Virus record (IMG/VR): IMGVR_UViG_3300045125_000117
Location: 1 to 29,944 of that record
Length of the DNA stretch: 29,944 nucleotides
Source: a virus
Direction: 5' to 3' (one strand)
Below are positions 3,709-29,944 of this stretch, in pieces. Numbering within the stretch: the stretch's first letter is position 1; every line of letters begins with the position of its first letter. The notes beneath the pieces were generated by a model. That model was not told the origin of the DNA and searched no databases. It was given only the letters and a program-made list of their open reading frames with translations. The translations under genes and the position numbers were made by a program.

Positions 3709-3724
3709 AATGGCATCTAAATGA

Positions 3725-4957: not shown

Positions 4958-4962
4958 ATATA

Positions 4963-4969: not shown

Positions 4970-5003
4970 TTAGTTTAATTCTCAATCAAACATCTAATAT
5001 TAG

Positions 5004-5046: not shown

Positions 5047-5048
5047 AA

Positions 5049-5678: not shown

Positions 5679-5679
5679 A

Positions 5680-5933: not shown

Positions 5934-5935
5934 TT

Positions 5936-7452: not shown

Positions 7453-7471
7453 ATGATAATGCACATAGTTA

Positions 7472-7863: not shown

Positions 7864-7868
7864 ATTAT

Positions 7869-7875
7869 ATAAATA
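7869..7875 (-). promoter_or_regulatory. TATTTAT box, 5 nt before start of ART-like gene
   Basis: The coding strand reads GTATTTATATAATATG immediately downstream of the capsid terminator, where a new promoter would be expected. No ribosome site is visible between box and start. Confidence 0.45.
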
Positions 7876-7881
7876 CTACAA

Positions 7882-7920
7882 TAAAAATAAAAAACCCACG
7901 GCATTTCTACCGTGGGTTTC
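7882..7920 (-). terminator. Rho-independent terminator after major capsid gene
   Basis: A perfect 10-bp inverted repeat (AAACCCACGG / CCGTGGGTTT) has an 8-nt loop. On the minus strand it is followed by a T-rich tract. It lies 20 bp past the capsid stop codon and separates the capsid unit from the accessory cluster. Confidence 0.9.
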
Positions 7921-7939
7921 TTTTTAACTAACTACATCG

Positions 7940-9697: not shown

Positions 9698-9746
9698 ATT
9701 TTATATTTTCCTTATCTATTTTTGTTTGGTTTGCTCACCATTAAAA

Positions 9747-10849: not shown

Positions 10850-10998
10850 ATTGTTTTATCCTTTGTTTGTTTCTGAAGTTATTATAGAAACTCCAATAGA
10901 GTTAGAATATTTATTGCGACAAAGGAAATGTCGTATTACTATAAAATAAATATAAATAAAAAAATCAAAAGTTAAAATAATTTTAGATATTTATTTAT
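10850..10998. promoter_or_regulatory. Divergent promoter region between scaffold gene and plus-strand island
   Basis: About 150 bases without a convincing gene. On the minus strand, two overlapping TATTTAT boxes lie at 10946-10958, about 100 nt before the scaffold start. They precede a leader with a small inverted repeat (cgaca / tgtcg, 10917-10933). On the plus strand, TATAAATA is at 10951-10958 and TATTTAT at 10988-10994. The layout suits outward transcription both ways. The region is very AT-rich, so single motif matches are weak evidence. Confidence 0.45.
10988..10994 (+). promoter_or_regulatory. TATTTAT box, 4 nt before plus-strand start
   Basis: The coding strand reads GATATTTATTTATATG. 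This is the only plus-strand transcription unit, and it carries the same box at the same spacing as minus-strand units, which supports a real signal. Confidence 0.45.
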
Positions 10999-11473
10999 AT
11001 GACCGAAAAACAAAAAACAATTATTAAAAAGATACATCAAAAAAGTATTGTTAGAATCCGAAATGATTCAAACAAAAGAAGCGGACGACACTAACTTGAC
11101 TGCCGTATTGCAAAAGGATATAACGGACCATATCCAATCGGTCCTCAAGAACTTGAAAAAAATAAAAGAAGCAATCAAGCATGTATACAAAAATGTTAGT
11201 TCTATAGATTTTACCAATAATACAATTAAGTTTGAAGTAAATAATACTCCAACAAATTTTCATTTTACTATAAGAAAAGTTATCAATCCACAAAATACTA
11301 ATCAATATAGATATGTTATGTGGTATGTACCCTTTGATAGCCGAGAAAATATAGATACTCCGGGAACAGTATTTAAAAGAGAAGCAAGTCCATTTGATAA
11401 AAATGTAAATATTCCAAATTTTTTGAGCAATATTTATAATTTTTTCATAAAGGCATTATTAATGAACAAATAA
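10999..11473 (+). CDS. Plus-strand hypothetical protein, helical N-terminus
   Basis: The start is MTEKQKTIIKKIHQK at 10999, preceded by a TATTTAT box 4 nt upstream. One indel near 11045 joins it to LLESEMIQTKEADDTNLTAV, ITDHIQSVLKNLKKIKEAIK, FTIRKVINPQNTNQYRYVMW, FDSRENIDTPGTVFKREA and FLSNIYNFFIKALLMNK. About 158 residues. The N-terminal half is predicted to be helical and charged, and the second half looks like beta structure. I recognise no family. It is the first gene of a two-gene island opposite to every other gene in the window, placed between scaffold and capsid-core genes. It could be a moron-type insertion or an early-expressed gene. Confidence 0.6.
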
Positions 11474-11477
11474 AATT

Positions 11478-11863
11478 ATGCAATCAAATCAAATTACTAT
11501 TAATTCAAAACGTCATAGTGTTGGTAGCAATCATAATAACTATAAACAACCAATGAATATTCGTAAAGATTATCATTCTTCCGGATTACAAAAATGAAAA
11601 TTACTATAAAATAGATGATTGGGACAATCCTAATTCATGGGAAATGAAAGATCTTGATATGTTGGAAGGTATGGGATTTCAAATTGAAGGTGATAGTCAC
11701 ATGGGATTAAGTATTCCCGGTGATCTTGATATGAATAAATACAGTGTTGCAAAACACAAAAAATTAGGTTATGAATTAAAAGTGAATGAACGAAAAACAT
11801 TATTTTAAATCATTTGATAATATGATGGAAAAAATAGATGAATTCGGTAAACTAGAAGTATAA
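11478..11863 (+). CDS. Plus-strand hypothetical protein (frameshifted)
   Basis: The start is MQSNQITINSKRHSVGSN at 11478, 4 nt after the preceding stop. After an indel near 11590 it continues DYKNENYYKIDDWDNPNSWE, MKDLDMLEGMGFQIEGDSHM, GLSIPGDLDMNKYSVAKHKK and LGYELKVNE. After another near 11790 it reads KHYFKSFDNMMEKIDEFGKL-EV and stops. About 125 residues. The acidic, aromatic middle (KIDDWDNPNSWEMKDLDMLE) is distinctive, but I cannot name the family. The last segment could be a separate small gene starting at 11786 (MNEKHYFKSFDNMMEK), because an ATG is present there. It ends 3 bp before a strong bidirectional terminator. Confidence 0.5.
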
Positions 11864-11865
11864 TA

Positions 11866-11893
11866 AAAACCCCGCTTTTCAGCGGGGTTTATT
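11866..11893. terminator. Bidirectional terminator between convergent genes
   Basis: An inverted repeat aaaccccgc / gcggggttt with a 6-nt loop is flanked by an A-rich tract on the left and TTTATTTTTT on the right. It can therefore stop both the plus-strand island and the minus-strand head operon, whose stop codons are 3 bp away on each side. Confidence 0.9.
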
Positions 11894-11895
11894 TT

Positions 11896-12374
11896 TTAGA
11901 GATTAAAGTATCTTTCTAATTTTAGACCGATTTCTTCGTACAATGCTTCGGCTTCCTTGCATAACGGATGAATCTTTATTAGCGGCTTTTTGTAAATCCA
12001 TTGCATGTTTTTTGATTTCTTTCATATCACGTTCCAATGTTACGCCTTCAAACCATTCACTGGTTTCATTCAAACCATACTTCTCAGTCATTTCTGCAAT
12101 GTAAACAATATTTTCAGCAACTTGCTTTAATTCATCTGCCATTTTCATTGCACGACGATATTCATTGAGACTGACCAACCATACCAAGCAATTTACGCTT
12201 TTCTTCAGCGGTCAGTTTCTTTGAAGGTAACGCTTCATTGGTACGAACAGGAGCACCTGATGGCGCAAATGCTTTTGGTGTATCCCAAGTAGTAGGTGAC
12301 TGACCCATCATACCACTCAATTCATTGGTAGTTTCTTGTTCTACTCCTTCAATAATTTTCTTTAGCGTAATCAT
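11896..12374 (-). CDS. Conserved head-operon protein with targeting-type leader
   Basis: The start is M-I-T-L-K-K-I-I-E-G-V-E-Q-E at 12374; I-I-E-G fits the protease consensus. The repaired body is about 160 residues: SGMMGQSPTTWDTPKAFAPS, KKLTAEEKRKLLGMV, SLNEYRRAMKMADELKQVAE, NIVYIAEMTEKYGLNETSEW, FEGVTLERDMKEIKKHAMDL, ending EAEALYEEIGLKLERYFNL. The second half is a long, conserved-looking helical domain that I associate with uncharacterised T4-like head-region proteins. It is the last gene of the head operon before the bidirectional terminator. Indels fall near 12,165 and 11,960. A structural or core role is inferred from leader and position. Confidence 0.6.
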
Positions 12375-12380
12375 ATGTTA

Positions 12381-12387
12381 ATAAATA
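12381..12387 (-). promoter_or_regulatory. TATTTAT box, 6 nt before start of leader-bearing head gene
   Basis: The coding strand reads AATATTTATTAACATATG in the 20-base gap after the upstream stop codon. Same box and spacing as other starts; no Shine-Dalgarno sequence. Confidence 0.4.
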
Positions 12388-12394
12388 TTATCAA

Positions 12395-13114
12395 TTATAC
12401 AAAAAACTCTTTATATGTAATTTTGTTAATATTTTCCGGAATAAGATTTCCTTTTTTATCGATTTTACCAGCGTTATAAGCTTTTAGATATTCAGCGGTT
12501 TTTGTTGTGGAATCTGCGGCATTTAATACATTTCCTTTTGGATCACTCCACAATTTAGTTGTATCGTCAAAAACAAAACCATTGAATTTAGCAGCATGTT
12601 TTGGACTAGTAATTGCTGCTATAGTTGGCGTTGATTTTGGTTTAGTTGATGTTGGTTTAGTTGATACTGATTTTGGTTTTGAAGCAGGTTTTGAAGCAGA
12701 TTTTGAAGAAACAGGTGGAACCGAAACTCCTATATTTTTTAAATAATCTGCAATATCTTTATATTGTGGTTGTTGTAAAGTTGCAATTACATTGTCAGGT
12801 TTTTTCACCTGTCATTTTCATGAAATCACGAATAAAACCCAATATTTGTTTTTTAACTTCAATTTCAGCATTTAATTTAGATTCAACATTACCGACTTTC
12901 AGTTTTACCAACAAACGGCTTCATACGTGCTTGAGCAATGCTAAATAAATGTTTAATTTTTTGCATCTTGCACGCTTGTTAATTTTAACGGAGTTCCCGC
13001 AGCAACAGATGCAACGGCAGTACCTAAATTTGATGCTGATGTTTTAACACCAGTCCATCCCGCTGAAATGCGATCCCACATTCCTTCATTTTGCATTGTA
13101 TTCTTATTATTCAT
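12395..13114 (-). CDS. Head-operon protein with Lys/Ser/Thr/Pro-rich linker
   Basis: The start is MNNKNTMQNEGMWDRISAGW at 13114, three bases after the protease stop. The repaired protein is about 240 residues. It has an N-terminal hydrophobic small-residue stretch (TSASNLGTAVASVAAGTPLK), a helical part (KIKHLFSIAQARMKPFVGKL, EVKKQILGFIRDFMKMTGE), a block QYKDIADYLKNIGVSVPP, then a basic linker (SKSASKPASKPKSVSTKPTS) that looks histone-tail-like. It ends with AAKFNGFVFDDTTKLWSDPK and ITYKEFFV. I do not recognise a family. Position between gp21 and the scaffold and capsid unit suggests a head-associated or packaged DNA-binding protein. Confidence 0.55.
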
Positions 13115-13117
13115 ATA

Positions 13118-13736
13118 TTATTTAATCTCTCCTAAAATTTCTCTAATAATATTATTTACATTATCCCATTTGTTTGTAATAGGATTTTTAACTGTGTTTA
13201 TACCTTCTTGAATTTGAGCCTGAAGGATGCAAAAATGCTCCTTGTGTGCTTGGATTGCTTACAAAATCGAAAGCAATAAGTTCAAAATCTTCTTGAACTT
13301 CATCGGCACTTTCTGCCATTTTTCGTTTTACACTACCAACTCCACGACTGCTAATACCTACGTTAATTGAACTTTTAAACAGTTCGCGCAAAATATTGCC
13401 GCTTGGAGTCGTCAAAATTTCAACACTACCAACCAAATCATCACCCTCCCAGTGAACTTCCAAAACATTGTGACTAACATTTTGTAAGTTTACTACACTG
13501 GTTTCTGGATGATCCAATTCACCCAATGCACGGCGTTGTTTTATAAAGTTTTCAGTATATTTTACAGCCTCGCGTTCCAAAATTGCTTTTGGATAAATTC
13601 TGCCGTTTTGATTTTTTGCATTGGCTCGTTGCAATACGCCTTTTACTACAAATGGTCCGCCACTGTTTGTCATTTCATTTATGACATCACGACTCACTGC
13701 AAACGAAATGCAATCAACAAGTAATTCTTTATTCAT
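13118..13736 (-). CDS. 21: Prohead core protease (gp21-like)
   Basis: The start MNKELLVDCISFAVSRDV is chosen at 13736, two bases from the preceding stop codon; the in-frame extension further upstream belongs to the previous gene. The repaired length is about 205 residues (T4 gp21: 212). Key blocks are GPFVVKGVLQRANAKNQNGR, IYPKAILEREAV, RRALGELDHPETSVVNLQNV with the likely catalytic His at about residue 76, and SSINVGISSRGVGSVKRK with the likely catalytic Ser at about 129-130. These match the assemblin-like fold of T4 gp21 and relatives. The enzyme would cleave scaffold, capsid protein and internal proteins after L/I-x-E. One indel near 13,215 separates the C-terminal ~30 residues (IQEGINTVKNPITNKWDNV...EILGEIK). 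Confidence 0.9.
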
Positions 13737-13737
13737 A

Positions 13738-14229
13738 TTATCTAGTATTAATATTTGGTTGAACTGGTGCAACTAAAGGCTGTTGTTTCTTTTTCTTTTT
13801 TGTGTTTTTGGAACAATTTGCGCCTGACCCAAAATTTTAATTTTGTATCCCGGCTCTAAAAAGTATTCTTTGTCATTTTCATCTTTGAAAACAACAACAT
13901 AACGTTCATAATAAAAATCAATACTAACACTTTTTACATTGATAGTATAATCTTTTATTGGTTGACCGTAACCTCTTGCTGCCACGCAAAAATACTTTTT
14001 TATTACCAACTAAACTCATTAGTTTTTGTTGAAAAGCATTTTTTGCATTTTCAGTAAAAGCAGCTATTGTGCGTTCAAAATTTGTAAAATCTAAACCAAC
14101 ATTAAATTCTTGTCCCGGCGTTGTTGGTTGTTGGGCAACAATAGGCTTGTAAGCATTCGGAGCTTGTGGCTCCAATGCTTCGTTATCTTGATTGTCGAGT
14201 TCAATTAATCTTTTTAAACTAATTGACAT
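13738..14229 (-). CDS. Prohead core-region protein with targeting-type leader (gp68 position)
   Basis: The start is M-S-I-S-L-K-R-L-I-E-L-D at 14229; the leader ends L-I-E. The repaired body is about 162 residues: NEALEPQAPNAYKPIVAQQP, TPGQEFNVGLDFTNFERTIA, AFTENAKNAFQQKLMSLVGN, GQPIKDYTINVKSVSIDFYY, ERYVVVFKDENDKEYFLEPG, YKIKILGQAQIVP and a basic tail. The second half looks like a small beta-barrel. It is directly between the gp67-position gene and the protease with 1-2 nt spacing, which is where T4 has gene 68. That is a positional analogy, since I see no sequence match. Indels fall near 13,990 and 13,800. Confidence 0.6.
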
Positions 14230-14230
14230 A

Positions 14231-14690
14231 TTAGTCAGATTCTTCTGAGCGTTTTAAGTTTTCAGGTGGTTCAGCCAAACTAGTCAATTCATCTTCTACA
14301 CTTTTTAACTTTGCTTTCAATTTTGCAAATTTGTCTGGATCAACTGGTGTACTTTTCTTTGGCTTAACAATTGGTTCGTATTTAGTAGGTTTTTTTCTGA
14401 TTTTTCAGGTTTTTTAGCTTCTTTTTCGTTGATAGTGCCAGTTTCATTCTTACCAACTTGCTTGTATCCATCCAAACCAGTTGTAGGATCTTTAACTTTA
14501 CCAAATGCATATGGTGTTTTGACTGGACCAGCACTGCCATCAGCAGGACTGCCACCAGCAGCACCACTGGTTGAAATTTCTTTCATTTGCTTGCGGATCA
14601 GTTCTTTTAACTTAGCTTTTAATTTTTCACGCAAAGTAGATCCGACAATTACTTTTTTCCCTTTGGTGGCATTACATTATCTTTTTTCAT
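14231..14690 (-). CDS. Small Lys/Pro-rich core-region protein (gp67 position)
   Basis: The start is MKKDNVMPPKGKK at 14690. The repaired length is about 153 residues: LREKLKAKLKELIRKQMKEI, STSGAAGGSPADGSAG, PYAFGKVKDPTTGLDGYKQV, GKNETGTINEKEAKKPEKSE, KKPTKYEPIVKPKKSTPVDP, ending KLKSVEDELTSLAEPPENLK. The protein is low-complexity and highly charged with an amphipathic N-terminal helix, which suits a prohead core component. T4 gene 67 also encodes a small charged core protein between portal and protease. The role is inferred from composition and place. The stop is followed immediately by TATG of the next gene. Confidence 0.55.
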
Positions 14691-14695
14691 ATTTA

Positions 14696-15562
14696 TTAAA
14701 TTTTAGATTTTATTTCTTTGATGAGTTCATATGAAAGCAACAAAACCATAATTTGATTGTCTTTGACATTCTTTGATGGTTTTACTTTATCCAATTGTTT
14801 TACAGTTTCTGTAATTTTAATTTTAATAACATCCGAATCAATTTTTGAACTCAATTGAGTTAATTCTTTCTTTACAGTTTCAACTTCTTCATTGATCAAT
14901 TCATTCAGTGAATTTGTATTGGTAATATTGTTAATAAATTCACGCAACAAACGTTTTTGATTTTGATCAAGTCCTTGATATTTTTCATTCAAACTATCAA
15001 CCATGATTTTATATGACAACATACGAATATCTTCGCTTTGTTGTTTATAAATTTTAATGACATCTTCTTCTGCTTCAAGTGATTTCTTCTTTATGCCACA
15101 AAGATTTTCACTAATAAAATTTCTAGCTTGTATGACTTCTTGAATATCAAATTTAATTTTATTGTTGATATAGATCTTCAAACAATTTATAAATTGACGC
15201 AAATAATTTATAATTTTTTAAACTGGATTTCAACAATGTTTCTGCGGAATAGACAGTGTTGATTTCTTTGATTAAATTATATTTTTGTTCTGTAAGTTTT
15301 TTGTTATCAAGCTTTTCGCGTTGTTTTAAACTGATTGAAATATATTTTTCTGCAAGTGTTTCATCTTTAGCTTAGTTCATTTACCAAAAAGTTATACAAT
15401 TGCCATTCGCGTCCAAGTTCCGTATTTGGAGAAAAATACTTAAACAAAAGATTTTTTGGCTGGCGATTCATCTTTTCCAGCCAAAATATCCGCAGTTACT
15501 TGTCGAGTAAGTAACTCAAATAGCAACCCAGTATTTCTAAACTTAGAATGTTTTGCTTTCAT
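14696..15562 (-). CDS. Conserved helical protein between portal and prohead core genes
   Basis: The start is MKAKHSKFRNTGLLFELLTR at 15562, then QVTADILAGKDESPAK, FSPNTELGREWQLYNFLVNE, KYISISLKQREKLDNKKLTE, QKYNLIKEINTVYSAETLLK, KNYKLFASIYKLFED, YKIMVDSLNEKYQGLDQNQK, RLLREFINNITNTNSLNELI, ending LSYELIKEIKSKI. About 288 residues, almost entirely alpha-helical and Lys/Glu-rich. The N-terminal 'K-x-K-H-S-K-x-x-N-T-G-L-L-F-E-L-L-T-R-Q' block is one I recognise from an uncharacterised protein conserved in T4-like phages next to the portal gene; no biochemical role is known to me. Indels fall near 15,375, 15,450 and 15,200. Confidence 0.65.
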
Positions 15563-15589
15563 ACATAATAATGTCTATTCCGTTATTTT

Positions 15590-15596
15590 ATAAATA
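15590..15596 (-). promoter_or_regulatory. TATTTAT box 27 nt before start of helical head gene
   Basis: The coding strand reads CTATATTTATAAAATAACGG in the 80-base gap after the portal stop codon. The longer spacing would leave a short leader, as for the fibre gene. Confidence 0.35.
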
Positions 15597-15643
15597 TAGA
15601 GAAAAATGTGTAAAATTGATTTAAATACGATATTTATCTAACT

Positions 15644-18584
15644 TTACTCAATAATATTCGATTCATCTAAAAATGATTTTTAGATGATTCTTCTTTTTCA
15701 TTTAAGATTGATTTTTTATTATTACCACACAGATGCAAATCCAATCCTTCAAAACTCAAAGGACTATTATTTTGTATGCATGTGAAATAGGATGTTTTTT
15801 TGTAGTTTTATTTGAACGACGAATGTTTTCACCACTTCAACGGATCTTCTCCAAATGGATAGTCAGATGCCTTTTTACGACCTGTTTGATCACGTTCTTT
15901 TAATGCAGGTGTAGGCGTTTCTGCTGGTGTTTCTGGTTTTGAAGATCTAATTCACCCGGAACTGTTTCATTTCCGCCACCTGTTTCATTTCCGCCACCTG
16001 TTTCTGCTGTATTAATCTTATTATATGGCTTTGCTGGATCGATACCTTCTTCTTCAATCTTTTTCAAACGATATGATTGTTTTGCATCTTCAACAATATC
16101 ATTTAAAATCACTGTCATATCATCGTCACTGGTGTTAAACACATTGGTATAAATCCACTTTTACTATAAATTTTTGCTTCCATCATGTCTTTAGCAACGT
16201 TAACTTTTTCTTGCCATACACTAACTTTTTTCTTTTTCCAAAAATTGTAGAAGGATTTGTCAATTCCAAGCTAAAATCAACTAAGTCTGCATCACGATAT
16301 CCTTGTGAATACAAATGAACGATGGCAATTTTAGTTAACTCACTTACAATAAATTTTTGAACACGCTGAACAGTGTGCAAAACGAACATCTTCTGCCGCC
16401 AAGTTGCTTTTCCGCTCAAATCTTCTTCGTATCCCAAAAATGCCTTTGGAATTTTCAATGCAGCCATCATCTTGTTACGCAGATATTCAATATCATCAAT
16501 ACCTGTAAATTCCATACCACTCAATGGTTCAATACTTGTACCACTATCACTACCACGCACTGGTAAATAAATATCCTCAACCATGTTCCATAAATTAAAG
16601 CGAAGATTATAATCTCCAGTTTTTTCATCAATATATGGTACTTTTTTGGTTTTATTGATCAATTTTTCCATATATTGATCAACTTCATTTGGAGGAATAT
16701 TACCAATATCTACCTTATAAATACGCTTTTCAGGTGCTCGCATAATACGATGAATCAACATTGCGTCTTCCATCAAACTTACTTGCTTCCATACACGACG
16801 CGCACCTTCAATAATCACCCTTACCATACGGCAAAAAATTACTATCACTCAACAAACGAAAATGAGCAACTTGATAATTTTCTAATTCTTCGATTTTACC
16901 GCCTTCTGGTAAGTTTACTTGAAATTTAATATAATTTTTATTATTTAAATCACTATTTTCAACGCGAGTAACATTATAACTACTAATTGGTTCAACCGGC
17001 GTAAACTCCAAATTCTGGGCCTACATACATTTTTAGATAAAAATCTCCGTGTATTTAACCAAATTACGAGGTCCAACTCCACAAATTAAATTCAATATTT
17101 AAAATGTCATAAAACAAATTATGCAAAATTTGTTTGATATTATCGTTACCGTTGGTGACATGCAATTGTTAATATATCACCCACCTCGTTTTGTGTTAAA
17201 CATTCGTCTGCATAAATGTCGAGAGCAGAAGATATTATTGGATCCTATGTCCATTGTGTTACTAACGAAACAACTATCTGTTGCAAAATTTTCATATTTT
17301 TCAACTGTAACATCATACACATCAATTTCTCCAATTATGTTCAATAGACACTATTTTGTGATTTAGTGTAGAAACGACTTCTTTTTTAAATGATTTCCAA
17401 TCATGCCCTTCTTTTTTGAGACGAGTTTGAAGAGTCGAATGATCCCAATGAATGTGTGAAATAAAATCCCATAATATTATATTTTTGAATATTCTTTATA
17501 ATATTCAAATGCTTTTTTCTTTAACATTCTCAAAAGTAATGTCGTGACGATATTTTGGATTCTTAACATCGGATTGATCTCTATTTTTAAATACTTTTTT
17601 TAACGTCTCGGATCGTTTTTCGTATTGGATTCATCGGAATGTGTTTTTCCGTAAAAAGGATTACTTTCTCCCTGATCTTTCTCCGTTCCAATGATGAAAA
17701 TCTACTATTAATATAATTGGGATGAGATTTTAATTTATTTAATTTGATTTTCATAATTTTTATCGCTCCATAATACATTCTTGTTATACTCACTGTGATA
17801 TTTTTTATGTTCTTTCCAATCCATTATCAATAGATTATCCGGCATATTATTAGAACCGTTTATATCTAAATGATGAACTACTTCATTTTTTTGAAGCGGT
17901 CGATAAAATTGTTCAGCAACAATTTTATGCTCAGATTGCCATCCTTTTGAAAAATTATATAATTTGCGATATCGTTTAAATCCATGTTTGTTATATCCAT
18001 AATCTTTTTGATAAAAAGGCATCACAGAATCACCCACTCGTAATTCAAATGTTCTTTTATACGATCCATCTCTCATCATAAATGGGTGTTTAAGACTAGC
18101 TATAACATGCTGCCCATTATCAAATGTGACTTTGTATCCTTGACGTTTTCCCTTCTTTTTCTAGGATGATACGCTTTTCCCAATTTAATACTATCCGTTT
18201 CGTGATCATAGCTAAACACATAAAAGCGTTCTTGTGGTTTATCTTTGTATTTTTCGGTCAACTCTGCTATGGTTGGTCGTGTTCCGTCTGGCAGTGGAAT
18301 AATTGTATCTGGTCCAACACAATCATAATCTCTAAACAATTCGATACGTGCCGCTTGATAACTCAAGGTAAAATCTCGGCTATATTGATTGTATGCACTG
18401 GTACGAATACGATTAAAACGATCACGTAATGTATTACGATCTGTTGCGTATGCTAATTCGTCAGTATCTATTACTTTTAGTTTTTTGCCACCAACATTGC
18501 GAACAATGACATCGGTGCTAAATAATCTTCTTAATTTTGAAAACAACGAACGTTGTTTCAACTCTTGAATTCATCTATAGGCAT
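15644..18584 (-). CDS. 20: Portal protein (gp20-like) interrupted by an intein
   Basis: The start is tentatively M-P-I-D-E-F at 18584, running by one indel into LKQRSLFSKLRRLFSTDV. The N-extein (~87 aa) ends SYQAARIELFRDYD at 18322. The C-extein resumes at T-M-D (17257) with PIISSALDIYADECLTQNEV. It continues VKYGDFYLKMYVGPEFGVYA-like sequence, NLPEGGKIEELENYQVAHFR, RRVWKQVSLMEDAMLIHRIM, RAPEKRIYKVDIGNIPPNEV, GSDSGTSIEPLSGMEFTGID, MMAALKIPKAFLGYEEDLSG and SDDDMTVILNDIVEDAKQSY. These are hallmark T4 gp20 blocks. The C-terminal tail carries a GGGNET repeat, ASDYPFGEDPL, SPLSFEGLDLHL and ends SFLDESNIIE. Extein length is about 620 residues (T4 gp20: 524). The portal forms the DNA channel and nucleates head assembly. 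Confidence 0.92.
15963..15998. repeat. 18-bp tandem duplication in portal C-terminal tail
   Basis: Two perfect copies of tgtttcatttccgccacc encode a Gly-Gly-Asn-Glu-Thr-type linker. In-frame and protein-coding. Confidence 0.85.
17258..18321 (-). mobile_element. Intein with HNH homing endonuclease inside the portal gene
   Basis: The N-terminal splicing block begins C-V-G-P-D-T-I-I-P-L-P-D-G right after the portal sequence FRDYD. Next come FYVFSYDHETDSIKLGKAYH and a block-B-like LKHPFMMRDGSYKRTFELRV (T/K-x-H-P type). An HNH domain follows, in two overlapping pieces: EHKIVAEQFYRPLQKNEVVH, then HHLDINGSNNMPDNLLIMDW plus EHKKYH. After it are basic, DNA-binding-type segments (LQTRLKKEGHDWKSFKKEV). 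The C-terminal block is GEIDVYDVTVEKYENFATDS, then CFVSN, followed by Thr as the +1 residue. Cys1, terminal Asn and Thr+1 support splicing. The penultimate residue is Ser where His is usual. About 354 residues across several indels. The exteins rejoin as RDYD-TMD. Confidence 0.9.
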
Positions 18585-18599
18585 ATCTGTATATATATC

Positions 18600-20196
18600 T
18601 TATAATAACCAATTTAAAGACTCTTTTTTATCATTGCCTGTTTTTCCTATATTCATTTCCCATGCTTGTTGAGCAGTTAAATGTCCACTTTTATATATAG
18701 GATCTGCGACACCAACTCTGTTTATACTATTCAACATGGTTCTTGTTAAATCAATACCATGCTGGCGCAATTTTAGTGCCGTGTCGCGAACCCATAGTCC
18801 AATGCTAAATGCCATGATTAAATCGTCATGGTGTGTTTTCATTGCTTCTGGTTTGTTTCCATTCCATACAAATGTACTCAGTTCATTCAATAATCTTATA
18901 GAGTTAATACTAACTGATTTTTCTCTAAAATACATTTCCAAACGAGACACAATCAATGGGCGGGTCTTCATAGTTGTAGTAAATCCCGGCACCATTTTTT
19001 TATCCATTTGATTATACTTTGTTGACATTTGACGTTCTATATCAACATATTGTAAATCTACACTGCTGTAAAAAGTATGTGGATATTGTCTATCTATTAT
19101 CTGCTGCAACACTGCCCAGCCTATATTTGCATTTTCAACGACCAACAATGCATTGTTGTATTCAGTTGCAACTGATACTAAAAAGTTACCATAATCTTTT
19201 GTACTAATTTGTCCTTGATATTCTGCTACTTGAGTCAAATTATCTACATCAATTACATGAAATGCACTATAATCTGCCCCATCACCCCTAGCTACATCCG
19301 CTGAAATAATATAATTTTTAGTATAATCTGGATATTCCCAAATCCAATAACCACTATCCGCCCCACGCATTTCTAAAGGATCTTTCATTTTTTCTTTTTT
19401 GTAAAATTCTAGTGTTTCAGAATCAATTACAGTATTACCAGATGTTAAAAAATCTGTGTCACATTCTTGAGATGCTCTTTTTTCTCCCAATTCTTTTGTT
19501 TGTCTATCTCTCCAAGCTTGATCTCTATCTGGATGTAAATTCCACTTTAATCTAATTTTATTAAATGTATTTCTTTTTGATTCCGCTGCTGCCCACGTTG
19601 AATGAAAAAAGTTTCCGGTTCCATTCGGAGTTGACAATAATATTGCGCGACCACCAGTTGCCATCGTTTGCTGCGCGGACGTCCAAACTTCTTCCGCATT
19701 ATCAATAAATGCACATTCATCCATTACAAGCAAATAACAACTATATCCACGCGCAGCGTCAGAATCACTGGATGCGGCCCAATACACGCGATTCATTTTT
19801 TAGTTTTAATGACAATCTATTGTCTTCTACTGGAGGAGATTTTAGCCAAGCTGGCAAATGACTATTTGCAAGTCTTATTTTAGAAACAATTTCTTTTGCC
19901 GATGCTTGTGTGATAGACAAAACAAGAATATTTTTACCCGGATTAAATATCATTACCCATAGAGCATACGCACTAACCAGTGTACTTATACCCATTTGTC
20001 TAGATTTTAAAACTATATTTCTATCGTTATTTATAAAAGCTTGAAGCGTTTCTTCTTGAAAAGGATACAATTCAAATGGAATAATTCCACGGGTTTGATG
20101 TTGAATTTTTATGTATTTTTTCATAAAATACATAGGATCAAGAAAACATTTTTTATATTCTTCTTTGATTGCTTGTTTTAATGTTTTTTCAGACAT
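18600..20196 (-). CDS. 17: Terminase large subunit (gp17-like)
   Basis: The start is MSEKTLKQAIKEEYKKCFLD at 20196; one indel near 19,790 (at NESRVYWAASS) breaks an otherwise complete ~532-residue protein. ATPase: FELYPFQEETLQAF (Q-motif-like), Walker A KSRQMGIST near residue 64, Walker B YLLVMDECAF near 160, coupling motif LLSTPNGTGNFFHS near 190. RNase H-like nuclease: IISADVARGDGADYSAFHVI near 300, LLVVENANIG near 355, and MKTHHDDLIMAFSIGL near 470, supplying the Asp/Glu/Asp metal ligands. It is the packaging motor that docks on the portal, encoded just downstream. Its start overlaps the upstream zinc-ribbon gene by 8 bases. All active-site residues are intact. Confidence 0.95.
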
Positions 20197-20879
20197 TATA
20201 TAATTTCTCCTCTTTTTCTTTTATCTTTAGCAGAGTTAATTTTTTTATTTCAGGATCGATATTCAAATCATATTTTATTTTTTTCAATTCGCTTTCAGCC
20301 AATTCTATTCCATTATTTACTTTTTGTAAATCTTCATGCAAATGCTTTAATACAATTTCACGTCTGTCTGTATTATCTACCCAAATTTCATTGCTGCCAT
20401 CTTCATTGAAAAATTGAGGATCTTTTGTTTTCGGTGTATAATTCTCAAGATATTGAATACTATCAACGACTTTTGATTTAAAATCTCGCATCATGGATAA
20501 TTCATTATTAATGATTTTAAATTTTTCGTAATCATTATAAATTCCACGACTTTTTAATACACTTTCAAATTCAATATTACATTCATAACAACGCTGTGTT
20601 TTTGGATAAATTTTTTGATCCAAGTGATTGCCCCACTTCATGTCTGCATTACAAATGGTACAACGCTGTTCAAGTACGTATTGTGCTTTTTTACTGACAC
20701 GACGTTTATATCCGTTTTTCTTTATCCATTTAGCTCCATTACTGTCTTCCCACTCTTCACCTTCTTTTTCTATTTTGTAACGCTATATTTTCGTCATAAC
20801 CAACTTGTATAAATGGACGTTCTCCATTTAAATAATTGCGAACAATACTTAAATTACTTTTTCCGGATGCTTTTTTCAT
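20189..20879 (-). CDS. Zinc-ribbon, coiled-coil protein overlapping terminase
   Basis: The start is MKKASGKSNLSIVRNYLNGE at 20879, then RPFIQVGYDENIAL, EEWEDSNGAKWIKKNGYKRR, CTICNADMKWGNHLDQKIYP, KTQRCYECNIEFESVLKSRG, YEKFKIINNELSMMRDFKSK, FFNEDGSNEIWVDNTDRREI, and a C-terminal coiled coil ending KEKEEKLYNV. C-x2-C ... C-x2-C, spaced by about 21 residues, forms a zinc ribbon. About 230 residues after repair near 20,640-20,790. The 8-base overlap with the large terminase start implies translational coupling and a packaging role. It is a candidate for the missing small terminase subunit (gp16 slot), but it does not look like T4 gp16, so this is inference. Confidence 0.6.
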
Positions 20880-20939
20880 AAATAAATCATAACCACTTTA
20901 TTATATATAAATTATACGCAGTAAGTCATTTTTATATTT

Positions 20940-21768
20940 TTAAATAACAGGATCTATATATTGTTTTAAAATATTATATTTTGTGCCGCCATTTTTAAAT
21001 TTTACAGTATATATAAAATCTGAACCTAGCGGCCCATTTTTGAAGAGGATTAATATTCTGTTTATCTAAAATTGTTCCTTTAGATCCAATTGGAATATTA
21101 TCAATATCAATTTTTGAAACAACTTTACTACCAACTGTATACGGTGCAGATAATTTAGTATCTATTTCATATATATTATCTGGATTATAAATACAAATTT
21201 GATCGCCATCCAATGTTCTGAACAGCGTTTTTCCCTTAAACCAAATTGCATCATATTTTGACTTTAAATAATTTGTCATTTTAACTGTGGCATGATAACG
21301 TTCTGCTTTAATAGCTGCTAAATTAGTTTTTGAATTACCAAATAACTTTTCTGGAGATTTTGTATCATAATCATATCCGTTTCTAATCCACCAATTCATC
21401 ATCGTAGAATTTGCTGCAAAATTAATAATTTCCAAACGAGGCACTGCAGCATAATAAATTTTCAATCCACTAATAGTTCCATCATTATATTTTTGCAAGA
21501 TTCTTTACGGTAGTCATATAAACTCCAAATCCTAAATGATGGACCGGCGCAGGTATACCACCATAATAATTTGAAATTTCATATCCATGTGAAGTTCCAG
21601 CAGAACTAGCATCATTATAAAAAATTTTGAATCCTTCACGATCAATTATTTCTCTTTTTTCAGCAGACGTACCATGATAAATAGGTCCAAAAAATTTATT
21701 TGATATTGCATAATCAAATGATATTTTTTTACTTGCGCTTCAATAATTAATGATTTTAAATTAATCAT
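20940..21768 (-). CDS. Leader-bearing ADP-ribosyltransferase-like protein (YHGT type)
   Basis: The start is M-I-N-L-K-S-L-I-I-E-A-Q at 21768, with its ATG overlapping the previous stop (ATGA). I-I-E-A is an ideal prohead-protease site. The repaired body has IYHGTSAEKREIIDREGFKI, HGYEISNYYGGIPAPVHHLG, FGVYMTTVKNLAKYNDGTIS, YAAVPRLEIINFAANSTMMN, KYDAIWFKGKTLFRTLDGDQ and ICIYNPDNIYEID. YHGTS, then G-F-G-V-Y-M-T, then Y-D-A-I-x-x-K with I-Y-N-P-D-x-I resembles the H-Y-type ADP-ribosyltransferase fold seen in phage proteins. A C-terminal ~70-residue domain (VGSKVVSKIDIDNIPIGSKG, then TVKFKNGGTKYNILKQYIDP) looks like an SH3/KOW-type barrel. About 275 residues. Enzymatic activity is inferred. Confidence 0.6.
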
Positions 21769-22523
21769 ATGTCAAAAGTTTCTTTAAAAACATTCGGAGC
21801 AGCATTATATGACTTTTTAGTTTCATCTAAATTATTATCTGTATATTGCCAATTCCAAAACAGTTGATCAGGTGTCTTGAACCCAAAATATTCCAATACA
21901 CTTTTTTGTATTTCTACTACATTTCCACCATTCCAATTTTGACCAACTGCAATAAATCCGGCATCAATATGTTTTACAATGTTGTTTTCACCCAATGTAC
22001 TATGCCGGTTTTCTATCCAAGTAAGTCTTTCGATTAATTTTTGATAATATCCGTTTGCTTGTCCCCATCTAATACTTGCAAAAATACAACACAATCACTT
22101 TCAAACAATTCTTTGCTTATTTTCCACAATTCATCACTTTATTATATACTACACCAACATCTATGATATCCAGATGGATTTTTTCTTTGTCTTTTAATAC
22201 TGCATCTTTTGTTCCACAGTGATTACCGTTATGTTCTTTATTGCTGCTCACATTACCTTCACATGGAAAAATATTCAATTTTGTTACATCAATATGCGAG
22301 ATTTTTTCTTTTCCTACAAATTCTTTAATATTGATTGCCAATTGTGTGCTTTTAGGAACATCATCTTTATTCTGTGTCCATCTATTACTTGTAGTCAATA
22401 ATAATACTTTATTTTTTGTTTTTAAATATTCTATTGTTTTCAAGTGTTTTTTGCATAACTATCCATTTCTAATTCACTAGATGGTAGTTTTGATTCATGC
22501 AATATTGATTTTAAAGTAATCAT
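21765..22523 (-). CDS. Leader-bearing flavodoxin-family NAD(P)H oxidoreductase
   Basis: The start is M-I-T-L-K-S-I-L-H-E-S-K at 22523, an ATGA overlap with the preceding gene; L-H-E-S fits the protease consensus. The repaired body is about 250 residues: NKVLLLTTSNRW (the phosphate-loop strand of a flavodoxin fold), VPKSTQLAINIKEFVGKEKI, HIDVTKLNIFPCEGNVSSNK, DELWKISKELFESDCVVFFA, SIRWGQANGYYQKLIERLTW, IENRHSTLGENNI, DAGFIAVGQNWNGGNVVEIQ, and FWNWQYTDNN. This is the layout of NADPH-dependent FMN reductase or flavodoxin-like phage proteins. The Cys-rich region (CEGNVS, HCGTK, HRCWCS) could bind metal or act in redox chemistry. A packaged redox enzyme is unusual. Indels fall near 22,440, 22,180 and 22,110. 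Confidence 0.7.
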
Positions 22524-23276
22524 ATTTGTTTAATAAATTGTACTGGTATATCGTGTCCGACTATAATTGTATATGGTGACATTCCTGAACTAGAATCTAA
22601 TTGTATTTTCATGTCATCCAATTCTAATTTAGAACGTATTAAATCTCTCAACAAATACTCTTCAATATCCGGTTCATATTCAAGATTGACTTCTGATAAA
22701 TTATTTGCATTCTTGAATGCATCCATATCAAGTTCCAAACATACATCTCCATATGTTCCACTTGCATGTTCTTCTGGATCAACGCTTGTAAAAATACCAT
22801 GTGAAAATCTATTTGTTAATCCAGCGCCGCCGCCGCCTTGCAACTCTTCACTTTGCTGTATAGCTTCCCAGTTTTCTTCTGTAGTATAATGATATAATTT
22901 GCCCGGATTAGCTTTTCAAATCTTCTAATGTACCTTCAATCCATCCATTATAGATAGAATCTACACCATGTCCCAATAATTCTTCCATTTCAGAATCGCT
23001 TAAATTATAAATCCAATCTTTTATATCTTTTACATATTCAAATGATTCTGATTTAGGATCGTATGTTATATACAATTCAGAATTTGTATTGTCTGATACT
23101 CTAAATAATTCTTTTAAACATTGTTTTATATTTAAATTAAATTTATTTTTAAGTTTAATTAATTCTTCTTTTGGTATATCATAACTATTATAATCTATAT
23201 AATCCTCCCAATCATCCCATAAATCGGCATTAATATCCTCATCATTTTCAGTTATTAGGTCTTTTAACCAAATCAT
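22520..23276 (-). CDS. Leader-bearing ART/RNA-2'-phosphotransferase-like protein (HYT type)
   Basis: The start is M-I-W-L-K-D-L-I-T-E-N-D at 23276; I-T-E fits the protease consensus. An acidic helical N-terminal domain follows (DINADLWDDWEDYIDYNSYD, KFNLNIKQCLKELFRVSDNT, SESFEYVKDIKDWIYNLSDS). After one indel near 22,910 comes KLYHYTTEENWEAIQQSEEL, GLTNRFSHGIFTSVDPEEHA, SGTYGDVCLELDMDAFKNAN, EPDIEEYLLRDLIRSKLELD, ending IIVGHDIPVQFIKQI. HYT-x-E-N-W-E-x-I, then G-I-F-T-S-V-D-P-E-E, then Y-G-D-V-C-L-E resembles ART-fold proteins related to RNA 2'-phosphotransferase/DarT-like enzymes. About 250 residues. It is the first gene after the tail-sheath terminator and heads a three-gene ATGA-coupled unit. 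Function inferred from pattern only. Confidence 0.55.
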
Positions 23277-23280
23277 ATAT

Positions 23281-23287
23281 ATAAATA
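23281..23287 (-). promoter_or_regulatory. TATTTAT box, 4 nt before start of ART-like unit
   Basis: The coding strand reads ATATATTTATATATATG just downstream of the tail-sheath terminator, where a new promoter is expected. No Shine-Dalgarno sequence. Confidence 0.45.
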
Positions 23288-23300
23288 TATAGAAATTAAT

Positions 23301-23332
23301 AAAAAAACCCTGCTAGATTTCTCTAGCAGGGT
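23301..23332 (-). terminator. Rho-independent terminator after tail sheath gene
   Basis: A perfect 11-bp inverted repeat (accctgctaga / tctagcagggt) with a 4-nt loop is followed on the minus strand by a run of seven T. It lies 20 bp beyond the sheath stop codon. Confidence 0.92.
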
Positions 23333-23351
23333 CTGATTTTTTAGGAACTAA

Positions 23352-26300
23352 TTATGCGCCGGGAAATTGAGCACCTGTTGGTAAGATGTTGAAGTCAAGA
23401 ATGATGAATTCAGCAGTCTTTGCAGGTTGCAAGTAAATTTGACCGTAAAGCACGTTTCTGTCGATCAAATCTGGGGTATTATTTTCAGCATCCATTTTAA
23501 CTTGGAACGCATACAATCCACTACGTTGTTGTACGCTTTCCAAATATGGATTTACAATACTCAAGAAACGATTGCGTGTTGCAGCAACATTTTGTTCGAA
23601 TACCAAGAACTTGCTTGAACTTGCAATGAATTTCTTCAATGCGATTAACAAGCGACGAACATTGATACGATCCAACGCGCTTGGTTTTACTTGAAGTGTT
23701 TTTTGACCCCATACACAAATTCCTTGACCCGGAAATGCTGCGATTGGGTTAACACGACCTTCATACAACACATCACGTTCTGCATGTGTTAAGCGATCCA
23801 ATACTTGAACAGCTTGTGAAATACCACCCACGATTCAAACCAGCAGGAGCAAACCATTCGGCACTTGAATTGTCATTTGCAGCGTAAATTGCTGGCATAA
23901 TAACACTAGGTGGAACACTGATAATCTTGTTTAAGTTGGTATCAAGAATCTTGATCCAAGGATAATATGTACCTACGTAATTACTATCAATTGTAGCTAC
24001 ATCATTTACAGCGGCATCAATCAAACCTACGCTTTGATTGCTCTTAGGGAAGATGATATTATCCATGATGTAGAAGCAATCACCACGGGCTTCACACATA
24101 TCGATTACCAATTGTGCAACATAGCTATGTTGACTGTGGAAAATACCCGGTGTAGCAATTAGGTTAATGTCAAACTCGTCTGCATTACCAAGAGCACCTA
24201 CAACTTGTTTGTAAGCAATACTACCTGCACTATTGATATTTACACAATTCAAACCTTGTGTATTACCAGCGGTAATGTCGCTACCAACATTAATTGGAAT
24301 TGCTGGACTTTGACCATCAAATCCACCTTGGAAACCAATAACGAACTTACGCATTTTAACGTAATTTGATTCGTTAGCAGAATCATAGGTTGCTGGTACA
24401 CTACCACTTGTTGCGGCTGGCAATAAACTACCAGTTGTTGCAATGTAAGCAGCACTACCACTACCCAAAACATCACCCAAATCGAAGTCAATGTTTTTAC
24501 CATTGCTATCATTTGCACCCATTGCTGGAATTGGAGCGAAATATTGTAGTGTATCTTCTGCAACAGTTACTCCAGTACTTGCTGTTGGATACAATGCAGT
24601 CAATTCATCATCAGCACCCAATGGAATATCACCGAATACTGTTCCAGAGGCATATTTACCCGGAGCTTGACCATAAATACTTGCTTTACTGTATTTTACA
24701 ACTGGAACATAGTTTGTTGCTGTGCTACCAATTGGACATGTATATGCTTGGAAACCATAAGGCACTGCACTTACTGGATATAGCAATATCACTCATTTCA
24801 ATACGAATGTATTTGCTCAAATTGCTGTAAGTACCGAATTCAATAATTTTACCTGCATAAGTGATATAATTATAACGATCACCGATACGACGAGCAATAA
24901 AGTTTGCACTGTCTGGGTCCAAACTCAAATTTTTGGAAAATTTCCAAATACTTAGGTTTTCTTTTCAGTGTCACTAAAGTCACGTACTGCAAGAGTGAAA
25001 CTACCCCAATCACTACCAGCAACAGTACCAGCCAATTTTACATTACTAATTTCAATCTTATATTTTTGATTGGTGTTGGTTCCGTCTGACAAGGTATGAA
25101 CTTTGAACAATTCAAATTTAGTTGCATTAGCGGTGCTACCATCTGCGCTCCAAGGAGCAATACCTTGACTCTTAATCCAAGGAGTTGCTGCATGTGTCAA
25201 ACTATAGCTACTATCACCAGCATTCAAATTCAATGAATATGAGTCGGTGAAAGCTAATGGATTACCAGTTGAAAAGCTACTACTTGGTAATACCGCACCA
25301 CGAATTTCCCAACCTTCAGTCAAGTATTTTGAAGCAACACGTTGAGCACTGCTACCAAAGAATTTATAAAGATAAGCAGCTTCAATTTTTGTTCCCGCAA
25401 CTTGTTTTGCTGGATTATCTGCGGGTTGCATCAGTACCAAATACATTTGTGATATATTTGTTACTTGCTGGATCTAATGAGAAGTCATAATAACCAACTG
25501 TGCTACCATTGCTTGCCAATTTCAACTGAAAATTCAATGCTGCACGATCAATTTCTCCAGCATATGTTCCACTTGAAGCGGTCGGTGCAATTAATACGCT
25601 ACCACTAAAACCAGCAGCAGTAAGTGTAGAATCTAATGTAGCATGTTGTGTATCAGCAAGAACTGCCAAAATTTGTGGTACACGACCACTTTGTGAAACA
25701 GGACTGCATGGATCACCATACGATCCCATTTGTTGCAGTAAATGTACCAGTCAATTTACCGAATGAACCACTTACGATACCATTAACAACCAATTGAACA
25801 CCACAACCACCAGTAGCAACTGATGATGTAAATGAACCACTGATCAAACTAATCGCACCACCATTAGTAACAATACCATTATCAGTATTTACGATAGTCA
25901 CTGAATTACCAAATGATCCACTTACGCTACCACTTGCACCAGCAGTTTCTGTCAATGCTTGTAATACTTTGGTAGGACCAGAAGCACTACTTCCTTGAAT
26001 ACTACTTGTTACATAAACGGCTGTTGTTGTAACTGTTGAAGGAAATGCGAATGCAAATTGTTGATTATAGTATAATTGACTACCACTATTGAAATTTGTT
26101 ACACTTCCACTAATTGCATCACCTTGTGAGCTTTTAAACTTACCAATAAAAGCAGCCCCACTCAAAAATTTCAACGTACCGGCAATACCAGATGATGTGT
26201 AATCAAATGTAGCAGCCATGTTATTAGTATCATATAATACATAGGAACTAGCACTGGTAAATGCACCTGCGCTGCCGCTACGATTATATGATCCGGGTTC

Positions 26301-26629
26301 GACTCAGATAACGAACGGATTATTTTGATTGTAACCTGTTAATGCACCGACACGAACAACAGTTACGAATCCTTTTTCTTTTAAATATTCTTTTGCAGTG
26401 TATGAATATAATAAACACCATCAGCTACACCAAATTTTGCTTCCAAATCAGCAGTACTAGTAACTAATGTTGGCGCAAATCCCGGTCCCTTGGGAACGGT
26501 GCAGCAATTGCTGCACCAATATCTGCGACACCTTGTGCAACGCCACTCAGATCGTTTTCACGGGTGAATACACCGGGACTCACGATTCTATCTTCTGGGC
26601 TAAATTTTCCACTCTCCAGTAATGGGCAT
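23352..26629 (-). CDS. 18: Tail sheath protein (gp18-like), unusually long
   Basis: The start is M-P-I-T-G-E-W at 26629 with AAAGGAAA upstream. The N-terminus is FSPEDRIVSPGVFTRENDLS, GVAQGVADIGAAIAAPF, then GPGFAPTLVTSTADLEAKFG, typical of gp18. The middle (about 24,950-26,220) is Ser/Gly/Thr-rich beta sequence, e.g. SGSFGNSVTIVNTDNGIVTN. The C-terminal part holds SLDPDSANFIARRIGDRYNY, VIGFQGGFDGQSPAIPINVG, EFDINLIATPGIFHSQHSYV, GTYYPWIKILDTNLNKIISV, PPSVIMPAIYAANDNSSAEW, FAPAGLNRG, GQGICVWGQKTLQVKPSALD and RINVRRLLIALKKFIASSSK, the conserved sheath core. Total length about 1,090 residues against 659 in T4, so the variable surface domains are strongly expanded. Several indels. Sheath contraction drives DNA injection. 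Confidence 0.93.
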
Positions 26630-26676
26630 ATGTTATATTTCCTTTCAAAATCAGTTTTTGTTATATAAAACTAAAT

Positions 26677-26683
26677 ATAAATA
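26677..26683 (-). promoter_or_regulatory. TATTTAT box upstream of tail sheath gene
   Basis: The coding strand reads GTATATTTATATTTAG 47 nt before the sheath ATG, in the ~100-base gap after the upstream gene; the sheath has its own AAAGGAAA ribosome site. Confidence 0.4.
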
Positions 26684-26731
26684 TACGTCAAAAATTCAAG
26701 ATTATAATATTTATGGGATTTTTATAATTTG

Positions 26732-28694
26732 TTATGGTAAATATCCAATTTGATTGTTAGAATCAATAACAACATATTTGTAACCAGAAGAAATAGTCGG
26801 TAAACCAGTAAATATAACATTTCCCGTCACAGTTAAATTTGAAAATGCCGCATCTGTGCTTGTTGATGGACTGCTTTCTCCATTTGGATCAAATGTTTGT
26901 ATCGTTCTTAAATTAGAATAAACCAAATTTGAATTATTGTCATACAACTCGGATTTGATGTCATACAATTCCTTTTGCTTGATTTACATTGAATGGAATT
27001 CTAACACTATAAGAACTTGGACTAAATCCATTTGTTCGATCATATTTAATTGAAATATTATTCAAAACCACGGACTTTAATCCTTTTGGTACTATTACCA
27101 AAGTACCATATATATCATTTAATGGAGTAAATTTAAATTGAAATGTATTATAAAAATTCTTTGAAGTACTAGTATCGTTTATTTCAATACTTGCTAAAAG
27201 TTTAATCTCCATAATCAGCGTTGTAATTGGATCGTTTATTATTGTTTCCATATGATCCAGTAAGGTAAAAATCAAACAAGCAGTTTGACTTGCATCTTTA
27301 GAAAGTAAATTACAGTCGAAAACTCAATACGTAATCTGTGTTTTGATTTAGTTTTAGAAAATTTGTATCATAAGATGAACCGGATTGATTTAAATATTCA
27401 TTTTGATTAAAATGGAATATGAATTTGCATTTCTATAATTAACTGGATCAGTATTTAATTTAGCTAAAACGTAGCCACTAGAAATGGTTGTAGAACTACT
27501 GATATTTAATGGCATCTATATAAGAACCAACTATCGTATTTTAATTCGCCAGATCCATTGCTTGAAAACCAAAAAAGTATTAATAAATGATTGTGTATAA
27601 AAATTACCTAAATTTTGATAACTTTTTATAGGAACTAAATTATTTTTAAGTTGTTCATTATTAGAAAAATTCTCATCTAATATCAAAACATAATCACTTG
27701 CCACATTTAAACTTTTTCATAAACCTTATGTCGAACAACTGCTCCGCTAAATGTATCTAAATTTTTATAAGTAACTTCCAGCAATACATACTTTTTATAA
27801 CGTGTAGTTGCACCCGCACTTTCAGTAATATAACTTGCAGTTGTAAAATAACTTTGATTATAAAGATAACTTGAATAGTTAATTGAATAACTGCCACTAG
27901 TAATTTCTACAACTGTGTTTTTATTATTTGCTGGATTTTTATAAATAATAGGCGACTCTAATTGTAAAGTATTGTAATTAATTACATTTTTAATATTGAT
28001 AGATGATGTTTGATTAATTTCTATTTCTCCTCCACCGTTTGGATTACGTATTTTGTGAACATTTAACACCATTCCAAAAGATTGAAAACTAGCACTAAAA
28101 GCTGTTGTTTTTGTAACAACTTGATAATCTATATTATTTTTATTATACTTAGTGTCATCGATATTAAAATTGGCTCCCGGCAAAATAGCTGTAGAATAAC
28201 ATAATCCACTGCTTGTTTTGGGATTTATTTCAGATGTGTTTGTTCTGGTAACATATGAAAGTAATGGAGTTACTTCAATTGTAGGTGGTACATAAAAACG
28301 AACCTTACTATCATTAATTAAAGTAGTATCTATATTAACATTGGTGATGTATCTAATAGATTTGCCATTAAATGTACCAATAAATATTATTTTACCAATA
28401 CCATTGGCATTTTGATTATAAACATGAAATGCATATGTAATTGCTTGTGTTTTTCTAATAAAATCATTGTTGATAGCCTTTTCGTAGTATAACTGACATT
28501 ACCATTTGCGTCATGTGCTTCAATTTTAATATCTGATGGTGGATTGTTTACAGTAATTGAATTTTTTCCAAGATGAAAATTACCATTAAACTCTGTAATT
28601 AAAAATACGCATGAGGAATAAAAATAGATGCATCCTCTGCGTCTACTTTAATGTTTAATAATCCTAAATTATTACCTGTTCTAAATTGTGGCAT
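26732..28694 (-). CDS. Large tail/baseplate structural protein with fibre-like C-terminus
   Basis: The start is taken at MPQFRTGNNLGLLNIKVDAE (28694), preceded by a TATTTAT box. An in-frame ATG at 28718 (MTVYIYEYMPQ) is an alternative. The repaired protein of about 650 residues is beta-rich. It includes NSITVNNPPSDIKIEAHDAN, NIDDTKYNKNNIDYQVVTKT, AFSASFQSFGMVLNVHKIRN, SGSYSINYSSYLYNQSYFTT, SGAVVRHKVYEKV, EIKLLASIEINDTSTSKNFY and GTLVIVPKGLKSVVLNNISI. It ends with a fibre-style FSNLTVTGNVIFTGLPTISS and VIDSNNQIGYLP. No family is named with confidence. Its place upstream of the sheath and its fibre-like end suggest a virion surface or baseplate component. Fragmented by at least six indels, worst at 27,280-27,700. 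Confidence 0.55.
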
Positions 28695-28700
28695 ATATTC

Positions 28701-28707
28701 ATAAATA
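28701..28707 (-). promoter_or_regulatory. TATTTAT box, 6 nt before MPQF start
   Basis: The coding strand reads ATATATTTATGAATATATG. It would lie inside the gene if the upstream ATG at 28718 is used, so its role depends on the true start. Confidence 0.3.
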
Positions 28708-28722
28708 TATACCGTCATTCAT

Positions 28723-29853
28723 TTATGCTACACAATCTTGGAAAATCCACGTTCTTTCTTGATTTCTAGTTGTTTTGTCCACCATATCTTTCATAGCATC
28801 CAAAATGACTTACTACCCAAATAAAAATCAAAATGTATTACCGAAAATATGATAATAATCGCCGATGCATTGAATTCCAAATTATCCTTATCAGCACAAC
28901 CAAATCCTTCATCAATGGCTATAAAATTTGGGACGTGGTAAATTAGAATATTTTTATGAGTGCAAACACGTGTTGCAAGCGACAACACAAACTTTTCTAA
29001 TCCGCTACCCATTTCAATCAGCCATTTTTTACCATCATATAGTTTATATAACCAATAACATTTTTGCCAGTCCGTAAATCAAATTAACATTGAATTCAAC
29101 GAATTCAGATTTGCGATATTGTTAATTTCTGCTTCTAATAGTAGGCAACAGCCTTTTGCTAATCAAATTATATGGAATACCGTCACGACTAATTGCCATC
29201 ATATAATACGTATAAGCTTGCTGTTGCAATTCCCACAGTTTAGCATTTTTGATTTGTTCTTCATAAGTTGTCTTTTGATTTCGTTGGCCAAAATCAATTT
29301 ACCATTTAAATCAGCAATTTTGCGAGATGAACTTTTTACAAGGGTATCTAATTTTTGAAATATTTTCCTTTACTAGATTCTAATCGCTTCATTTACAACT
29401 TTATTAGATTCAATTGCATCACTTTTGTTTATAGCTACGATTGAATATCTTGTTCCAATGTTAGTAACCTGATTTTCATATTGAACCAATTTCGTAGAAT
29501 TTTTCAAAAATTCAGAGTTTGCATAATTGTATTTTCTTTTCATATTCAGATTTTTTTCTGATTGAGCGAATTAACTTTCTTATTTTGCTCCACAACATCT
29601 ACATAATAAATTTATATTATCATTGAGATTGTCTTTGTTAATATTTAAGGCATCTAATTCTGTTTCAATCGTGTGATATTCATCACTTGTTTTCTTAGAA
29701 GTATGATCTTAATGTTTTTTATTTGCTTTACACAAAATGAACAATTAGGATCATAATCGATGCCATTGCCGAAATTAGATAAAATAGATTTCTTTTACTT
29801 GATAGTTCTACATTCTTTTTATCAATTGCATTCTGAATATTTTGAAGATCATG
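28723..29853 (-). CDS. 46: SbcC/Rad50-type recombination ATPase (gp46-like), C-terminal part
   Basis: The 5' end is cut off by the end of the read. A zinc-hook sequence YDPNCSFCVKQIK (C-x2-C) near 29,740 is followed by a second coiled-coil arm, e.g. LWELQQQAYTYYMMAISRDG, IPYNLISKRL and EINNIANLNS. The ATP-binding C-terminus is DGKKWLIEMGSGLEKFVLSL (ABC signature G-S-G-x-E-K-F), NLPRPKFIAIDEGFGCADKD (Walker B plus D-loop) and FDFIWVVSHLDAMKDMVDK. These match T4 gp46, the partner of nuclease gp47. The complex resects DNA ends in recombination-dependent replication and host DNA breakdown. Heavily frameshifted (about ten indels). The stop at 28723 precedes the next gene by under 30 nt. Confidence 0.8.
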
Positions 29854-29944
29854 TTAAAGCGGCGCACGAAAAACGCGAAAGGGGTTTCACGATAAATGCG
29901 AAAAACGCATAAACACCTGCATCTGATAACCGAACGAAGTACAT
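29854..29944. other. Nanopore adapter and barcode flank (not biological)
   Basis: Starting with aagcggcgcacgaaaaacgc and continuing gtttcacgataaatgcgaaa, this matches, with a few errors, the reverse complement of the Oxford Nanopore rapid-barcoding flank as I remember it. The final gaacgaagtacat matches the reverse complement of the standard sequencing adapter. Base composition changes abruptly from the AT-rich phage sequence. The ~25 bases in between would be the barcode, which I cannot identify. Confidence 0.9.

Follow-up and report, generated by a model that had tools for sequence, protein, structure and literature searches.

Nanopore contamination of NCBI records, among them phages and Streptomyces assemblies, has already been published in the Barbell study, which described Mu flanks from rapid kits that remained at the ends of contigs and advised that the check be extended to resources such as GTDB (PMC13293122). 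NCBI core nucleotide was queried in that work for the flank plus a barcode, and matches to the flank only were set aside. It was also found that 83-89% of rapid barcoding reads carry one tag, at the left, and that about 5% of rapid reads are tagged at both ends. For viromes assembled from MinION reads only, an average of 474 indels per 100 kb (4.7/kb) was reported before polishing, and the error of raw nanopore reads was given as 5-10% (VirION, PMC6487183).

The window analyzed here, which is an entire virus record, linear and 29,944 bases long, resembles the Barbell cases in that a rapid-kit Mu flank was left at its end. The last 90 bases of the record are a leftover nanopore library adapter. 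In reverse complement, positions 29855-29944 consisted of a ATGTACTTCGTTCAGTTA-like adapter, a GGTGTTTAACC-like linker and a 50-base MuA transposon end; the order on the minus strand was ATGTACTTCGTTCGGTTA, eight unassigned bases, AGGTGTTTATGC and the 50-base right end of phage Mu, the last with 4 edits. The components were as follows.

29927 to 29944, minus strand: Oxford Nanopore sequencing adapter, a library artefact; 17 of 18 bases are those of ATGTACTTCGTTCAGTTA (local alignment and edit-distance scan)
29919 to 29926, minus strand: miscalled adapter remainder, TCAGATGC on the minus strand (window sequence, and comparison with the barcoded layout of PQ065999 and the unbarcoded layout of sample 3300045125)
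29907 to 29918, minus strand: rapid-kit linker, AGGTGTTTATGC in place of GGGTGTTTAACC; two to three differences (local alignment)
29855 to 29906, minus strand: MuA transposon end (phage Mu right end), a rapid-kit component; 4 edits in 50 bases

Local alignment of the reverse-complemented right end with the rapid adapter plus MuA end gave a score of 115, whereas none of 1000 shuffles scored above 26 and no other part of the window above 27. For the Mu end by itself the score was 85, compared with 25 for the control, and the best edit distance for its 50 bases was 4 at the terminus and 18-20 everywhere else in the window. These values, and the match of the last bases to the adapter sequence, bear out the preliminary description, which had identified the right end as reverse-complemented ONT adapter and had proposed this comparison as a check. 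No internal copy of the adapter or Mu end, and no chimera, was found inside the window by a dynamic-programming edit-distance scan. In a blastn search, 48 bases of the Mu end were matched by phage Mu itself (AF083977), at its right end, with 95.8% identity, and the longer adapter plus Mu arrangement was also found close to the termini of plasmid records from Streptomyces. Unlike phage Mu, the window has no Mu genome behind this sequence, which is preceded by the kit linker and adapter.

The order adapter, linker, Mu end is that of the Oxford Nanopore transposase-based rapid kits; the kit sequences are corroborated by 23 other IMG/VR contig ends with the same order and by phage Mu itself. The terminus has the arrangement of the unbarcoded rapid kit, with the Mu R end on the sample DNA, the linker directly before it and ATGTACTTCGTTCAGTTA outermost. 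No 24-base barcode was detected by local alignment between the linker and the Mu end, which abut each other. The rapid barcoding kit was therefore ruled out, since the window, unlike the barcoded PQ065999, lacks a barcode. The barcode-flank match noted earlier thus held for the flank and failed for the barcode.

Nucleotide homology to the relatives ended at 29851 (alignment with L086) and protein homology at 29853 (proteins of the relatives aligned with the window), so that the adapter was assigned to 29855-29944 and the start previously placed at 29854 was correct to one base. Related phage contigs run on with phage sequence past this junction. The adapter is joined to a site within a phage gene, as expected of random transposase library insertion.

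28731 to 29853, minus strand: gene interrupted by the adapter junction, 1071 residues in a relative; 21 frameshifts in 341 aligned codons

The carrier is a T4-like phage, in which the myovirus proteins terminase large subunit (PF03237), portal (PF07230), prohead protease (PF03420) and tail sheath (phrog_23) were identified.

1 to 29854, minus strand: T4-like phage genome fragment, genes on the minus strand with few exceptions; about 200 indels that break the frame and are specific to the window
17273 to 18322, minus strand: intein with HNH_3 endonuclease in the T4-like portal gene, inserted at ELFRDYD/C...HN/TMDMD

An intact copy of the intein, 348 residues in length, was present in IMGVR 3300032237_000868, and the portal gene was uninterrupted in L195 (same record as L006), L005 and L087. 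Neither a T4-like carrier nor a portal intein is generally regarded as unusual for phages. Two segments of the window, 20943-21767 and 22498-23246 (750-825 bases), were missing from L004 at clean boundaries and present in L086; the second had a weak match, below the cut-off, to the ADP-ribosyltransferase family PF15633.

Frameshifts were counted by aligning proteins of intact relatives with the window, using a purpose-written frameshift-aware aligner. The 24 genes compared (23.7 kb aligned) contained 160 frameshifts, and at least one was present in 23 of them; the sole exception was aligned over 67 codons only, at 31% identity. The same proteins and method gave 0 frameshifts over 43.9 kb in four relatives (L008, L012, L041 and L088), the only ones counted as wholly independent controls because they supplied no query proteins; L006, L064, L086, L184, L185 and L087 had partly supplied them and were not so counted. 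DNA alignments of the window with its relatives had 6-12 frame-breaking gaps per kb, compared with 1.5-2.4 per kb between relatives at 80-87% mutual identity and higher values for distant pairs. When an indel was considered window-specific only if supported by two independent relatives, 203 were found in 23.0 kb. In the window, 39% of the sequence lay in stop-free stretches of at least 150 codons; in the close relatives the share was 87-99%. The roughly 200 broken reading frames are sequencing errors and reflect the quality of the data, not the biology of the phage. That almost all genes are frameshifted had been described from the start, together with the view that the record was neither trimmed nor polished and that annotation based on ORFs would mislead. 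All three points agree with the adapter and the frameshift count; polishing did not reach a usable standard, and ORF calling breaks nearly every gene.

The indels were not distributed uniformly. Their density was U-shaped, 18.5/kb in the flanks (0-9 kb and 27 kb to the end) and 4.3/kb in the middle (p=3e-26), so that the rate changes about fourfold along the record.

1 to 9000: high-error left flank; 16-22 indels per kb of sequence that could be compared
9000 to 27000: low-error middle; 4.3 indels per kb over its whole length, with 3-kb bins ranging from 1.5 to 8.4
27000 to 29854: high-error right flank; 17.5 indels per kb, 43 insertions and 7 deletions

The density did not track gene divergence, the worst gene, at the adapter, being 88% identical to its relative, and a terminase fragment of 398 codons (1.2 kb) was free of frameshifts. 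A second rise at 15-18 kb (8.4/kb) departs from a simple U. This rise in frameshifts peaks over the portal intein, and fewer reads spanning the intein may account for it. The value for the middle is near the 4.7/kb of long-read-only assemblies before polishing and below the error of raw reads (PMC6487183), and truncated gene calls follow in both cases, but the window additionally has high-error flanks, with the adapter.

The errors were mostly insertions of a single base; window-specific single-base events comprised 124 insertions and 37 deletions. Insertions of one base fell in runs of at least three in 10% of cases (9% expected) and deletions in 35% (22% expected, n=37). A homopolymer origin of the indels is unsupported by this run-length test, and the earlier statement that many of the frameshifts lie at homopolymers was not upheld. 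The flank bins had 109 insertions and 26 deletions; insertions, four to one over deletions, dominated there at non-homopolymer sites, and these indels were mostly not copies of the neighboring base. Insertion-dominated, non-homopolymer indels differ from the usual nanopore spectrum. One possibility is that a consensus from very few reads kept the extra bases of each read.

The exact linker-Mu junction was searched in 2.9 million IMG/VR contigs. It matched 18 stretches, every one from sample 3300045125; the window presumably comes from this sample too, but its error-rich adapter copy escapes an exact search. When other Mu patterns were added, 21 contigs with 23 adapter ends were found in this sample, all with the same unbarcoded adapter. 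The adapter was forward at the left end in 12 cases and reversed at the right end in 11, always at the extreme end of the contig, and the contigs bearing it were up to 187,259 bases long. The adapter tails had 8% edits on average, equal to that of the window. Two contigs had inward-facing adapters at both ends, with no mutual similarity beyond the adapter; these two alone are not decisive, since about 5% of rapid reads are doubly tagged, and it is the even split of orientations that decides. The pattern is that of assembled contigs with untrimmed end reads.

The record is thus very probably a contig of Oxford Nanopore rapid-kit reads that was deposited without adapter trimming and without effective polishing. 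During the library step, MuA transposase would couple the Mu end of the kit to a DNA fragment at its 5' end, and attachment of the sequencing adapter on the Mu-end side would give reads in the order adapter, linker, Mu end, sample DNA. If the read at the right end of the contig were on the minus strand, its start would appear as the reverse complement at 29855-29944. The middle would be a low-coverage consensus that retains about 4 indels per kb, and the flanks, covered by fewer reads, would retain about 18; read depth is presumably the cause of the U-shaped density. The preliminary description had instead considered the window to be probably a raw read. An adapter at one end only, the many indels and the 4 edits in the 50 bases of the terminal Mu end are all compatible with one raw nanopore read, and a read of variable quality that was reverse-complemented on deposit would also have its adapter at the right. 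Nevertheless, such an origin is improbable, given the end and strand of the adapter, the U-shaped indels and the occurrence of both orientations in sample 3300045125. The adapter is on the strand opposite to that of a native read, rather than forward at the left, the error rate is uneven, with a middle well below the raw-read error (PMC6487183), and the terminase fragment extends for 1.2 kb without a frameshift. Moreover, sister contigs of up to 187 kb carry the adapter in both orientations, two of them as an inward-facing pair.

Two biological explanations were also considered. The 50 bases are genuine sequence of the right end of phage Mu, and IMG/VR does contain true Mu prophages (L162, L168 and L174), so that a Mu-like element of the phage or its host might be envisaged at this site. 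However, the prophages have Mu sequence (GAAGCGCGAAAGCTAAA) before the Mu end where the window has the kit linker and adapter, the sequence lies at the very end of the record, no Mu genes were seen and the relatives continue with phage sequence at the site; a natural Mu end was already refuted by the linker and adapter, and the probability of such an element is minute. The frame breaks in 23 of the 24 aligned genes could in principle be real, in a decaying phage or in a recoded or frameshifting genome. Against this, protein identity to the relatives is 62-98% across the breaks in nearly all genes, those for essential head proteins among them, in-frame stops numbered only 3, the relatives have none of these breaks and the breaks increase toward the adapter end. 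Real frameshifts are extremely unlikely.

Adapter sequence was also seen in other records. In four contigs of IMG/VR sample 3300049043 (L180-L183) the nanopore ligation adapter is internal, often with two copies back to back, and this suggests that chimeric reads were left unsplit and connect unrelated DNA. The GenBank 'complete genome' of Proteus phage vB_PmiA_PM1 (PQ065999.1, L002) has a rapid-kit adapter with an apparent barcode at about 940-1049, and the annotated protein XES61207.1 overlaps it. Four Faavne_M6 contigs of the GTDB collection (L210-L213, from Sulfurimonas, Robiginitomaculum and Enterobacterales) begin or end with the rapid-kit linker and a partial Mu end, and their names indicate Pilon polishing. 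In contrast to the Barbell search for flank plus barcode (PMC13293122), the unbarcoded kit was recognized here by the linker-Mu join, in IMG/VR and in the four contigs of GTDB-listed genomes. The IMG/VR cases appear to be undocumented in the literature searched; no literature on the affected samples 3300045125 and 3300049043 was found, the accession search having covered 3300045125 only.

Untrimmed nanopore assembly was likely deposited for the whole of IMG/VR sample 3300045125 and, as a separate case, for 3300049043, with systematically truncated viral proteins and adapter-derived links between unrelated viruses as the result. The value of these observations is practical only. Gene counts, gene lengths and claims of pseudogenes or gene novelty made from this record are unreliable, and the same is probably true of similar contigs in sample 3300045125. 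Adapter ends can produce false links between records. Affected sets can be detected quickly with a filter that combines the 22-base linker-Mu junction at contig ends with short stop-free stretches.
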